Source: Chloroflexota bacterium
GTDB lineage: Bacteria > Chloroflexota > Anaerolineae > Anaerolineales > Anaerolineaceae
DNA: 64,000 nucleotides
Assembly: GCA_021825925.1 (NCBI GenBank)
Contig: JAKAFP010000004.1
Location: 124,001 to 188,000 of the forward strand
Reading direction: 5' to 3'
Made by a program: the position numbers and the translations under genes. Below the pieces are notes generated by a model. That model was not told the DNA's origin. It saw only the letters and a program-made list of their open reading frames with translations, and did not search any database. Positions within the stretch are counted from its first letter, which is position 1; each line of letters starts with the position of its first letter. Below are positions 33,668-41,169 of the stretch, one piece after another.

Positions 33668-33698
33668 TTCAAAACCTCCAATTGTTTTATTTTTAAGG

Positions 33699-33770
33699 AG
33701 TCCATAGCGAGAATCGAACCCGCGGATAACGGTTTTGCAGACCGTCGCCTTTCCACTTGGCTATATGGAC
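33699..33770 (-). tRNA. tRNA-Cys (GCA)
   Basis: On the minus strand the sequence folds as a cloverleaf with acceptor arms GTCCATA/TATGGAC, anticodon loop CTGCAAA giving GCA, T loop GTTCGAATC and a discriminator U, which is diagnostic for Cys tRNA. CCA is not encoded. It sits ahead of the sulfur amino acid genes. Confidence 0.95.
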
Positions 33771-36196: not shown

Positions 36197-36230
36197 AAAA
36201 AAAACCTCTTCTATAAGATAAGAAGAGGCC
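36197..36230 (-). terminator. Terminator of the SAM-I riboswitch
   Basis: CCTCTTCT pairs with AGAAGAGG and a run of eight T residues follows on the minus strand, between riboswitch and metA. It is the expected expression platform. Confidence 0.88.
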
Positions 36231-36245
36231 AAATTAGTGTTGATC

Positions 36246-36351
36246 TCCTCTCATCTTCCAGATCACTTCTGCCGGATTTGGCACCTTGTTCGCTTGAACA
36301 GGTTGTCGAGGCTTCATCGGGCCGGTCCCTCTGCCTCTCTGGATAAGAGTG
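36246..36351 (-). ncRNA. SAM-I (S-box) riboswitch
   Basis: The minus strand shows the S-box consensus: P1 arms CTCTTATCCAGAG and GATGAGAG, GAGGGACCGGCCCGATGAAGCC for the core, and GGTGCCAAATCCGGCAG for P3-P4. It binds S-adenosylmethionine and then favours the terminator at 36197-36230. It controls the metA homologue and metY. Confidence 0.95.
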
Positions 36352-36381: not shown

Positions 36382-36418
36382 AAAATAAAAAAAAGCCCGG
36401 GAGCAAATCCCGGGCTTT
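36382..36418 (-). terminator. Attenuator terminator between leader peptide and SAM-I riboswitch
   Basis: AAAGCCCGGGA pairs with TCCCGGGCTTT (11 bp, 5-base loop), followed on the minus strand by eight or more T residues. It lies 70 nt after the leader peptide stop. The intervening segment also forms a CTGCTCC/GGAGCAG hairpin (36434-36462). Confidence 0.85.
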
Positions 36419-36487
36419 CATCTTTCATTTGGGCTGCTCCATCAAAATACTTTCAGGAGCAGATCACTTTCTATTTTGGCTTATTGA

Positions 36488-36818: not shown

Positions 36819-36847
36819 TTGACAAATCTTTTTGTGTTGTTTATTAT
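36819..36847 (+). promoter_or_regulatory. Promoter of the metQNI unit
   Basis: TTGACA at 36819-36824 and TATTAT at 36842-36847 with 17 nt between. The predicted start (about 36853-36855) falls on the A of the leader peptide ATG, so the leader mRNA appears leaderless. Confidence 0.75.
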
Positions 36848-36854
36848 CATGCAC

Positions 36855-36953
36855 ATGATAAATCAACTCGGCAAGTCACAGATCTGTATGTGTTCATGTA
36901 TGATGCTTTTGCGATGGAGTTCTCCTCTACCGCTAGTACATGAATTTGACTAG
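36855..36953 (+). CDS. Met/Cys-run leader peptide of the metQNI unit
   Basis: This is a 32-codon reading frame ending TAG at 36951-36953. It contains QICMCSCMMLLRWSSPLP with three Cys and three Met codons in a cluster, followed 88 nt downstream by a strong terminator (37041-37079). An ATG two codons upstream (36849) lies before the predicted transcription start, so 36855 is preferred, without a ribosome site. The cluster and the R-x-S-S-x-L-P tail resemble those of the other two leaders. Attenuation by Met/Cys supply is inferred. Confidence 0.75.
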   Translation: MINQLGKSQICMCSCMMLLRWSSPLPLVHEFD

Positions 36954-37040
36954 TCGCTAAAGATTTGAGCCCATCGCTTCCTGATTCAAAATAGGATGGC
37001 ACGGTGGGCAAACAGCTCAACAAGCGCTTGTAGATAATCT

Positions 37041-37079
37041 CAGCGCCACCAGACATCCTGGTGGCGCTGTTTTATTTTT
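37041..37079 (+). terminator. Attenuator terminator ahead of metQ
   Basis: CAGCGCCACCA pairs with TGGTGGCGCTG (11 bp, 7-base loop), followed by TTTTATTTTT. It lies 42 nt before the metQ start. A GGTGGGC segment near 36999 could pair with GCGCCACC as an alternative structure. Confidence 0.88.
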
Positions 37080-37120: not shown

Positions 37121-38068
37121 ATGAAAAACACAGTTCGTAATAACACATTGTTTAGCCGCACTCAGCATGCGGCTGGTCACAAAGCAACCGTGACAGGTAT
37201 TTTGATTTTGGCAGTTCTGGTCGTATTAACCTTCGTCCTCTCGGCTTGCTCCACTGCCGCTGCAACCCCGACCGAAGCCGCTGCAACTGTTGCAGCCACC
37301 GAAGCAGCCACGGCTGTCGCCACTGCTGAACCTACCAAGGAGCCGATTAAGATCAAGGTTGGTGTTTCACCTGTTCCCCATGGAGATATCATCAATTTCG
37401 TCAAAGAAAATCTTGCTGCCGCCGCCGGTTTGGATATCGAAGTGGTTGAATTCACAGATTACGTCCAACCCAACCTGGCTTTAGCCGCTGGTGAAATTGA
37501 CGCCAATTTCTTCCAACACGTTCCGTATTTGACCGATTTCAACAAGGAACATAACCTCGAATTGGTCTCTGTCGCCGCCATCCATATTGAACCTCTTGGC
37601 ATTTTTTCCTCCAAGATCAAATCACTGGATGAAATCACCGATGGCGCAGTCGTTGCCATCCCTAATGACGCCACCAATGCCGGTCGTGCCCTAAGCCTGC
37701 TCGCCGCAAATGGTTTGATCACCCTCAAAGACGGTGTGGGTGTTTCAGGCACTGTTGCAGATATTGTGACCAATCCCAAAAATCTCGACATCAAAGAACT
37801 CGAAGCTGCCCAGCTTGTGCGCTCATTGGAAGATACCACTATCTCAGTCATCAACGGTAACTACGCCCTTGAAGGTGGCTTATCTCCCGCCAAGGATGCA
37901 CTGGCTCTTGAAAGCGCCGAGAACAATCCCTATGCCAACGTCCTCGTGGTAAACAAGGGTCATGAGAATGATGAGGGTGTCCAAATCTTGATCAAGCTGC
38001 TCACTTCACCAGAAGTCAAGAAATTCATCGAAGAAAAGTACAGCGGTTCAGTAATTCCGGCGTTCTAA
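37121..38068 (+). CDS. metQ: Methionine ABC transporter, substrate-binding lipoprotein (NlpA/MetQ family)
   Basis: This 315-residue lipoprotein, start MKNTVRNNTLF (GGAGAAGAAA upstream), has a signal peptide ending FVLSAC (lipobox). A low-complexity Ala/Thr/Glu linker follows (TPTEAAATVAATEAATAVA). The binding domain starts IKVGVSPVPHGDII and contains VVEFTDYVQPNLALAAGEIDAN and FFQHVPYLTDFN, typical NlpA/MetQ signatures. It is followed by metN and metI. Its transcript opens with a Met/Cys leader and terminator. Confidence 0.94.
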   Translation: MKNTVRNNTLFSRTQHAAGHKATVTGILILAVLVVLTFVLSACSTAAATPTEAAATVAATEAATAVATAEPTKEPIKIKVGVSPVPHGDIINFVKENLAAAAGLDIEVVEFTDYVQPNLALAAGEIDANFFQHVPYLTDFNKEHNLELVSVAAIHIEPLGIFSSKIKSLDEITDGAVVAIPNDATNAGRALSLLAANGLITLKDGVGVSGTVADIVTNPKNLDIKELEAAQLVRSLEDTTISVINGNYALEGGLSPAKDALALESAENNPYANVLVVNKGHENDEGVQILIKLLTSPEVKKFIEEKYSGSVIPAF

Positions 38069-38313: not shown

Positions 38314-39291
38314 ATGATTTCGATTTCGAACCTCAGAAAGACCTATGACCAAACGCAACAAGTCGTCCACGCCCTGGATGGCGTTTCACTGCACGTTTCA
38401 CCCGGTGAAATTTTCGGCGTGGTGGGTTCCAGCGGCGCCGGAAAGAGCACATTGATCCGCTGCGTCAACCTGCTTGAGCGTCCGACTTCCGGGTCCATTG
38501 TTGTCAATGGACAGAATATGAATTCACTCTCTACTCAAGAATTACGCATCGCGCGCCAAAAGATTGGTATGATCTTTCAACAATTCAATTTATTGAGTTC
38601 CCGTACTGTTGCCGGTAACATCGCCTTCCCGCTTGAGATTATCGGCTTAGACAAAGCTGAAAAAGAAAACAAGGTCAACGAGTTACTCGCATTGGTCGGA
38701 CTGAGCGATAAGGCGAACGTCTACCCTGCCCAACTTTCAGGCGGACAGAAGCAGCGTGTGGGTATTGCCCGGGCGCTGGCCACCGATCCAAAAGTGTTGT
38801 TATCGGATGAAGCCACCTCGGCTTTGGATCCGCAAACCACCGCTTCGATCTTGAACCTGCTGAAAGAATTGAACCAGCGTTTGGGGCTAACCATTCTCTT
38901 GATCACGCATGAAATGGAAGTGGTCAAACAAATTTGCGACCATGTTGCTGTTCTTGAAGACGGAAAAATTGTGGAGGAAGGTGCACTGGCTGACCTGGTG
39001 GTTCGTCCTCACAGCTTGATATCCAATGCCCTTTTTCCAGCCACTGAAGTCAGATTATCCAAACCCGGAATTACCAGCGCAACCATCACCTTTATCGGTG
39101 AAGCCGCGGATCAACCTGTTCTGGCAGGATTGGTCAAGAACTTTGATGTTGAGGTCAATATCCTCAGCGGCAGCATCCAGAACATCAGCGGTCGCCGAAT
39201 AGGTAGACTGCAGATCGATTTATCGGGTGTACAGGTGAACCACGCCATCGGTTATTTGCGCGGTCTTGGCGTGAACGTGGAGGTGAACTAA
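38314..39291 (+). CDS. metN: Methionine ABC transporter, ATP-binding protein
   Basis: This 325-residue ATPase has Walker A VVGSSGAGKSTLI, signature LSGGQKQRVGIARAL, Walker B VLLSDEATSALD, and H-loop LLITHEMEVV. The C-terminal 80 residues form an NIL domain (from about 245; TFIGEAADQPVLAGLVKNF), which senses Met and inhibits transport in MetNI. The start ATG at 38314 has a weak ribosome site. The metI start overlaps its stop. Confidence 0.95.
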   Translation: MISISNLRKTYDQTQQVVHALDGVSLHVSPGEIFGVVGSSGAGKSTLIRCVNLLERPTSGSIVVNGQNMNSLSTQELRIARQKIGMIFQQFNLLSSRTVAGNIAFPLEIIGLDKAEKENKVNELLALVGLSDKANVYPAQLSGGQKQRVGIARALATDPKVLLSDEATSALDPQTTASILNLLKELNQRLGLTILLITHEMEVVKQICDHVAVLEDGKIVEEGALADLVVRPHSLISNALFPATEVRLSKPGITSATITFIGEAADQPVLAGLVKNFDVEVNILSGSIQNISGRRIGRLQIDLSGVQVNHAIGYLRGLGVNVEVN

Positions 39292-39947
39292 TGGACTGGT
39301 CAGTTTGGGTGCCAAATTTATTGAAAGGAACTTCTGAGACTTTATACATGGTCGGAGTCTCCACCCTGTTTACCCTGGTGATAGGGCTTCCTTTGGGGGT
39401 CTTGCTGGTGATCACTGACAAAAAGGGATTGCTGGCTTTGCCTGTTTTTAATCAAATTCTGGGAGTTGTAGTTAATATTCTGCGTTCGCTGCCCTTTATC
39501 ATCCTGCTTGTGGTGATCATCCCCTTTACGAGGCTGATCGTGGGCACCACCATCGGCTCAACCGCTGCCATTGTTCCGCTCTCGATTGCCGCCATTCCTT
39601 TCTTTGCCAGGGTGGCCGAGACAGGATTGCGTGAAGTGGACCGCGGCCTGGTCGAAGCGGCACAAGCCATGGGTTGTTCCACCTGGCAGATCATTTACAA
39701 GGTGCTAATCCCGGAAGCGTTTCCGTCATTGATCTTGGGAACTGCACTAACCATCATCAGCCTGATCAGCTATTCCGCGATGGCTGGCGCCATTGGCGGG
39801 GGCGGATTGGGCGATCTGGCAATCCGTTATGGATACCAGCGCTTCGAAACGGAAATTATGATTGCCACCGTGGTCTTGCTCATTCTGCTGGTGCAGGGCA
39901 TCCAGTTCCTGGGGAATAAATTGGCGCTAAAATTATCAAAAAGGTAG
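39291..39947 (+). CDS. metI: Methionine ABC transporter, permease
   Basis: This 218-residue permease has five TM helices and the EAA-type loop EAAQAMGCSTWQIIYKVLIPEA near residue 120. It begins MDWSVWVPNLLKGTSETLYMVG, typical of MetI. It overlaps metN by one base and completes metQNI, which imports methionine. Confidence 0.95.
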   Translation: MDWSVWVPNLLKGTSETLYMVGVSTLFTLVIGLPLGVLLVITDKKGLLALPVFNQILGVVVNILRSLPFIILLVVIIPFTRLIVGTTIGSTAAIVPLSIAAIPFFARVAETGLREVDRGLVEAAQAMGCSTWQIIYKVLIPEAFPSLILGTALTIISLISYSAMAGAIGGGGLGDLAIRYGYQRFETEIMIATVVLLILLVQGIQFLGNKLALKLSKR

Positions 39948-40002: not shown

Positions 40003-41169
40003 ATGTCTCAATCCTCTCATTTCGAAACACTCGCCATCCATGCAGGCCAGGAGCCTGATTCTGCCACCGGCGCAGTCATTACCCCGATCTACCAAACCTC
40101 CACCTATGCGCAAGAAGCCGTGGGCGTAACCAAGGGGTTTGATTACAGCCGCTCGGATAACCCTACCCGCCAGGCTTTGGAACAGTGTTTGGCAGCCCTC
40201 GAAAGCCCCGATGCCAATCACCCTTCATTTGGACTGGCTTTCTCTTCTGGTCTGGCCGCCACGGATACGCTGCTGCGCCTGATCAAACCCGGCGAACATG
40301 TGCTGGCCTCCAATGATGTCTACGGTGGAACTTTTCGCCTGTTTGACAAGGTGTTGAAAGACTATGGCATTCACTTCTCGTTTGTGGATATCACTGATCC
40401 CAAACTTGTGGAAACCGCACTTCAACCAGAAACCCGCCTGGTGTGGATCGAAACCCCCACCAATCCGCTGCTCAAGATCGCGGATATTGCTGAAATTTCA
40501 AAGCGCGTTAAAGCCCATTCCCATCGAATCTTGGTCGCGGTGGATAACACTTTTGCCTCACCCTATCTACAGCAGCCCCTCAGCCTTGGTGCGGATTTTG
40601 TGGTGCATTCGACTACTAAATACCTGGGCGGTCACTCCGACGTGGTGGGAGGCGCGATCATCATCAAAGACAAAGCCCATTATGAAAAATTGAAATTCCT
40701 GCAAAATGCCATCGGCGCAGTCCCCGGACCGCAAGACAGCTGGTTGACCTTGAGAGGCATCAAGACCCTCGCCCTGCGCATGGAACGTCATTCATCGAAT
40801 GCTGCTGAGGTTGCCAAATATCTCGATAATCATCCCGCTGTTGAGCGCGTGATCTATCCCGGTCTCAAAAGTCACCCAGGGCATTTTGTGGCCAAAAAGC
40901 AAATGAAGCTGTATGGCGGCATGCTATCTGTCATTCTGAAAGGCGGCGCACCTGCCGCGAAAAAGTTGGTTGAAGCCACGAAGCTATTCACCCTGGCTGA
41001 AAGTCTGGGCGGCGTGGAATCTTTGATTGAAGTGCCTGCCTTGATGACGCATGCCTCGGTCGCAGGCAGCGACCTCGAAGTCCCAGCCGGGTTGGTTAGG
41101 CTATCAGTTGGGATTGAAAAAATTGAAGACTTGATTCAGGATTTGAATCAAGCTTTATCAACACTATAA
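40003..41169 (+). CDS. Cystathionine gamma-synthase/lyase-family PLP enzyme
   Basis: This 388-residue enzyme has GFDYSRSDNPTRQALEQCLAALE near residue 45, the FSSGLAATDTLLRLI motif, and the PLP Lys in VVHSTTKYLGGHSDVVGGA near residue 210. It is of the MetB/MetC/CGL class. With cystathionine beta-synthase next to it, reverse transsulfuration (homocysteine to cysteine) is likely, so cystathionine gamma-lyase is the better guess, but sequence alone cannot separate MetB from CGL. AAGG precedes the start. It lies 55 bases after metI. Confidence 0.9.
   Translation: MSQSSHFETLAIHAGQEPDSATGAVITPIYQTSTYAQEAVGVTKGFDYSRSDNPTRQALEQCLAALESPDANHPSFGLAFSSGLAATDTLLRLIKPGEHVLASNDVYGGTFRLFDKVLKDYGIHFSFVDITDPKLVETALQPETRLVWIETPTNPLLKIADIAEISKRVKAHSHRILVAVDNTFASPYLQQPLSLGADFVVHSTTKYLGGHSDVVGGAIIIKDKAHYEKLKFLQNAIGAVPGPQDSWLTLRGIKTLALRMERHSSNAAEVAKYLDNHPAVERVIYPGLKSHPGHFVAKKQMKLYGGMLSVILKGGAPAAKKLVEATKLFTLAESLGGVESLIEVPALMTHASVAGSDLEVPAGLVRLSVGIEKIEDLIQDLNQALSTL

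Follow-up and report, generated by a model that had tools for sequence, protein, structure and literature searches.

What kind of control might a short Met- and Cys-rich open reading frame exert on the methionine-uptake genes behind it? This question is raised by a leader on the forward (+) strand of the window, the 64,000-nucleotide stretch of DNA analysed here. The leader opens with the promoter TTGACA-N17-TATTAT (36819-36847), in which direct reading places the -35 TTGACA at 36819-36824 and the -10 TATTAT at 36842-36847, separated by a 17-nt spacer. The preliminary description had called this promoter perfect, a label that fits its -35 and its spacing only, as 11 of the 12 positions agree with the consensus; both hexamers and their spacing are kept in homologues. 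The ATG at 36855 lies 7 nt 3′ of the -10 and opens a frame of 32 codons (36855-36953, with the TAG at 36951) encoding MINQLGKSQICMCSCMMLLRWSSPLPLVHEFD. An intrinsic terminator with a T tract follows (37041-37079), its 12-bp stem and loop reading CAGCGCCACCAG-ACATC-CTGGTGGCGCTG at 37041-37069 and then TTTTATTTTT. Behind it, Pfam and NCBIfam identified, all on the + strand, metQ for a methionine-binding lipoprotein (37121-38068), metN for an ABC transporter ATPase with a NIL domain (38314-39291), the permease gene metI (39291-39947) and a cystathionine gamma-synthase gene (40003-41169), which is probably the last gene of the operon. A Met/Cys-rich frame of this length containing QICMCSCMM, then a terminator, then metQ, had been described before and was confirmed by direct reading. 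We found that the leader element also takes in 36967-37009, between the frame and the terminator, which was absent from that description.

We found 15 further copies of the leader, of which 13 precede metQ. A DNA similarity search picked up two congeneric genomes with the leader, a protein search located it upstream of metQ in Leptolinea tardivitalis (Anaerolineaceae), and a covariance model search added more genera; in the distant genus g15, upstream regions taken from a family-wide metQ search revealed the same layout with a very different sequence. One extra copy, in genome G002, precedes a methionine-aminotransferase-like gene, identified from an N-terminal fragment only. Another, in G633 from a different family of the class (leader L095), precedes cysK-cysE and carries the same switch core with Cys codons. 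In the family metQ search, no leader was found in genus g17, where metQ is located after metI-like permease genes, or in G017, where metQ is present. In G017 (L103), a tRNA-Cys gene lies directly upstream of this metQ. The covariance model searches of phylum and class were run with strict filters, which divergent copies can escape, and the weak matches L094, L096, L097 and L124-L129 were taken as chance, as they showed no promoter-ORF-terminator context. Moreover, the pattern of promoter, ATG and Met-N6-CGRTGG occurred once in the window and in none of 100 shuffles. Among 327 genomes of the class, a sample of the distribution outside the family, this pattern, validated on the window and the loci, matched the window leader alone, and the reversed control gave 0 matches.

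Judging by comparison of the 16 leaders, the frame appears to be translated. The distance from the ATG to a fixed Trp codon was 51, 57, 60 or 63 nt, a multiple of three throughout, and the 247 upstream codons held 0 stops in this frame, while the two alternative frames had 21 and 7; as the leaders are related, these counts do not amount to independent trials. The first codons have almost completely diverged, while the frame and its start position are kept. The lack of stops and the variation of leader length only in threes support the translated frame proposed earlier. These observations also bear on a riboswitch made of RNA alone that would respond to methionine, SAM or a related metabolite, its conserved helices serving as the aptamer and the open frame being incidental. 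Such an element would suit the conserved RNA structure, the terminator ahead of genes for methionine uptake, the strong fold of the leader RNA (z = -4.0 against shuffles) and an unpaired GACU..UAAA stretch that close relatives keep after the stop codon. However, this stretch is lost in genus g15, the leaders keep their start position and a stop-free frame although the codons diverge, and the identity of the signal codon follows the pathway, as detailed below. Even with E allowed to reach 10, Rfam gave nothing credible for the leader on the + strand, and the SAM aptamer models found no match on this strand or in the homologues. A plain riboswitch was set aside since the reading frame is conserved, and we consider it improbable.

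The position of the ATG suggests how translation would begin. In 14 of the 16 leaders, only 6-7 nt separate the -10 from the ATG, so there is no room for a Shine-Dalgarno site, and the leaderless start that had been predicted on the A of the ATG at 36855 agrees with this spacing. The two remaining leaders would fit an attenuator that is real but not leaderless, with transcription starting further upstream or the frame beginning elsewhere: the ATG lies 17 nt from the -10 in G194 (L092) and 39 nt from it in the cysK copy. Against this stand the near-consensus promoter, the spacing kept in the other 14 leaders and the lack of a comparable upstream promoter on the + strand, and we regard a start other than the leaderless one as unlikely. 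The G194 leader has an AAGG upstream of its ATG; in this lineage, Shine-Dalgarno initiation appears to have replaced the leaderless mode.

We then consider which codons could carry the signal. In the window, the control codons are C11 M12 C13 S14 C15 M16 M17 (36885-36905, +), of which M17 (36903-36905), placed four codons ahead of the fixed Trp (CGRUGG), is the conserved Met. Met occupies this -4 position in 15 of the 16 leaders; the sole exception is the cysK-cysE leader, with Cys-Ser-Cys in its control region. At -6 from the Trp, Met occurs in nine leaders, Trp in four and Cys in three; the four with Trp (L087, L089, L090 and L091) read Trp-Leu-Met, which lies outside the account given by the attenuator model. 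The Cys run of the window is common to its near relatives only, and G204 has a single Met in its control region. Cys as the main conserved signal was rejected, given that the leaders of G044, G204 and genus g15 have no Cys before the switch point. Methionine would then be the conserved main signal, as we infer from these codons. The joint Met/Cys signal proposed at first is thus upheld for Met and narrowed for Cys to close relatives, together with the cysK-cysE copy in which Cys replaces Met. Dual sensing of Met and Cys would be reasonable in the window, because the cystathionine gamma-synthase of the operon consumes cysteine. The genes behind the leaders (metQNI-cgs, the methionine-aminotransferase-like gene and cysK-cysE) match the signal.

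The leader RNA, on the + strand throughout, could form several mutually exclusive helices: A:B, A:C, C:D, D:E as the antiterminator and E:F as the terminator. The local hairpin A:B (36904-36938) begins at or close to the conserved Met codon, and segment A (GCGAUGG A GUUC, 36911-36922) lies inside the frame. Segment C (GAGCCCAUCGCUUCCU, 36967-36982) may pair with A or D; segment D (AGGAUGGCACGGUGGGC, 36993-37009), the 5′ side of the antiterminator, may pair with C or E; and segment E (37041-37059) comprises the 5′ arm and loop of the terminator, so that D:E pairing spans the loop in addition to the arm. A terminator lies between the frame and the operon in all 16 leaders. When the segments of each leader were compared with segments swapped between species, own pairs were more stable for A:C (-25.5 vs -19.1 kcal/mol), C:D (-19.9 vs -16.4 kcal/mol) and D:E (-17.8 vs -14.0 kcal/mol), with 0 of 20,000 permutations in each case, counts that overstate independence because the leaders are related. 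With one leader per genus or locus, the corresponding counts were 0 of 50,000 for A:C and 2 of 50,000 for D:E, and C:D was weak (2135 of 50,000). The base of A:C is nearly invariant and contributed few double changes to the formal pair count. The partners in D:E change together, from GGAUG:CAUCC in the window to GGUAGAU:AUCUACC in G194 and GCGGGUGG:CCACCUGC in G204. The covariation in D:E also speaks to a T-box or degenerate T-box that would sense uncharged tRNA directly. A likeness to the T-box consensus is seen in segment D of the window (AGGAUGGCACGGUG), and this resemblance is lost among relatives, where D varies freely with E. The T-box covariance model (RF00230) matched neither the leader, at E up to 10 in the window, nor the homologues, and a T-box would leave the frame unaccounted for; we hold it to be hardly credible. 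Taken together, competing helices and a terminator in 16 of 16 leaders point to a transcription attenuator, as had been suggested from the window.

We modelled the position of the ribosome by equilibrium folding of a transcript that ends at the terminator loop and lacks all RNA 5′ of the ribosome's leading edge. In the window, a ribosome held on the control codons or 5′ of them gave about 13.6 A:C and 9.7 D:E pairs, while one past the control codons or at the stop codon gave about 14.6 C:D pairs and no D:E pairs; without translation, C:D was favoured, corresponding to the off state. The last effective stall shifted with the footprint assumed downstream of the first A-site base: for 8 nt it was M17, for 10 nt M16, for 12 nt C15 (with a partial effect at M16) and for 14 nt C15. 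The assumed footprint decides whether M17 could act as a control site or the codons upstream of it alone. Across the leaders, stalls at -5 to -10 favoured D:E in 11 to 15 of 16 under nearly all settings. In 7-10 of the 16 leaders, D:E remained dominant even when the ribosome was placed at the stop codon, so that the off state was not reproduced there. The off state of some relatives would therefore need kinetics, because equilibrium folding keeps D:E at this position.

Comparison of the leaders shows the frame, the promoter-to-ATG spacing, the conserved Met codon, the terminator and the A:C and D:E complementarity to be common features, and from these we infer where the transcript would start, its translation and the direction of the response. 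We propose, with a probability of about 0.8, that the leader is a leaderless, ribosome-mediated transcription attenuator that senses charged Met-tRNA, plus Cys-tRNA in the genus of the window. The transcript would begin at the ATG or 1-2 bases from it, and a ribosome would load at the 5′ end and translate the 32-codon frame behind RNA polymerase. As had been suggested earlier, initiation of this kind might also tie the ribosome more closely to the polymerase. When charged Met-tRNA (and Cys-tRNA) is plentiful, the ribosome would pass A and reach the stop codon in the A:C loop; with A unavailable, C:D and then the terminator E:F would form, and the operon would be off. Under a shortage of charged Met- or Cys-tRNA, the ribosome would stall on the Cys and Met codons just before A, blocking the A:B hairpin while leaving A free. 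A:C would then form and release D, which would pair with the 5′ arm and loop of the terminator in E, and transcription would run into metQNI-cgs.

Stalling could in principle also come from the peptide itself. TnaC is an example of nascent-peptide arrest, for Trp; here, excess free methionine or SAM would be sensed by M-x-x-R-W in the exit tunnel and stall the ribosome. One invariant Met with an R-W pair, and the lone control-region Met of some leaders such as that of G204, would be expected of such a peptide. However, the R-W pair is dictated by RNA segment A (CGRUGG) and the remaining peptide is not conserved. Furthermore, Cys replaces Met before cysK, and the folding model links a stall to the on state, whereas a signal of excess should turn an importer off. 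Arrest by the peptide is accordingly rated as very improbable.

The neighbourhood of the leader carries further elements. A SAM-I riboswitch (S-box, RF00162; 86.5 bits) with a terminator lies at 36203-36349 on the - strand, before metA, so that a riboswitch on the - strand and the putative attenuator on the + strand stand back to back as two different sulfur sensors in one intergenic region. An additional terminator-like hairpin (36391-36419, both strands) lies upstream of the riboswitch on the - strand, and a tRNA-Cys (GCA) gene (33697-33770, -) is found immediately downstream of metA-metY. The adjoining riboswitch suggests that uptake may track charged tRNA while biosynthesis tracks SAM.

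Bacterial methionine genes are usually under the control of SAM riboswitches, T-boxes or repressors. We found no methionine leader-peptide attenuator among the open-access papers that our search covered; since the sequence-level features of an attenuator are present, the leader would represent a novel form of a known type. We think it rather likely that these leaders make up a methionine-dedicated attenuator family of the Anaerolineae, possibly the first of this type on record for methionine, with a leaderless frame, a shared RNA core and exchanged sensor codons (Met before metQ, Cys before cysK-cysE). The leaderless start would drop the Shine-Dalgarno step and unite the 5′ end, initiation and sensing in a compact whole, and the presence of Cys codons in place of Met before cysK may be seen as a natural codon-swap experiment.

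Like the SAM-I riboswitch (RF00162), the leader would control methionine genes at transcription, but its + strand has no match to that model, and sensing is proposed to go through translation. In Actinobacteria, no conserved RNA structures were reported before methionine operons (PMC1262725). Leaderless leader peptides are documented in Actinomycetota. In mycobacteria, leaderless polycysteine short ORFs lie upstream of sulfur-metabolism genes, according to PMC4633059, PMC1262725 and Canestrari 2020 as cited in PMC13236596. They lack a conserved terminator hairpin (PMC1262725), and PMC13236596 describes their mode of control as translation attenuation. The leader of the window shares with them the predicted leaderless short ORF, the cysteine codons and the downstream sulfur-metabolism genes, but has a conserved intrinsic terminator with an antiterminator, and Met as the conserved codon. 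In Corynebacterium glutamicum, a leader peptide on a leaderless message controls the terminator of ilvBNC (PMC11857589); that system differs in its branched-chain amino acid signal and three-hairpin layout, and is unrelated in sequence and phylum. The plan resembles that of the classical trp, his, leu and ilv attenuators, in which a short ORF with signal codons precedes a terminator before the structural genes and the ribosome selects between exclusive helices. In contrast to these, the leader described here has a predicted leaderless start, Met (with Cys) as its signal and two more segments (A:B, A:C, C:D, D:E, E:F), and a stalled ribosome therefore has to leave A exposed instead of covering it.
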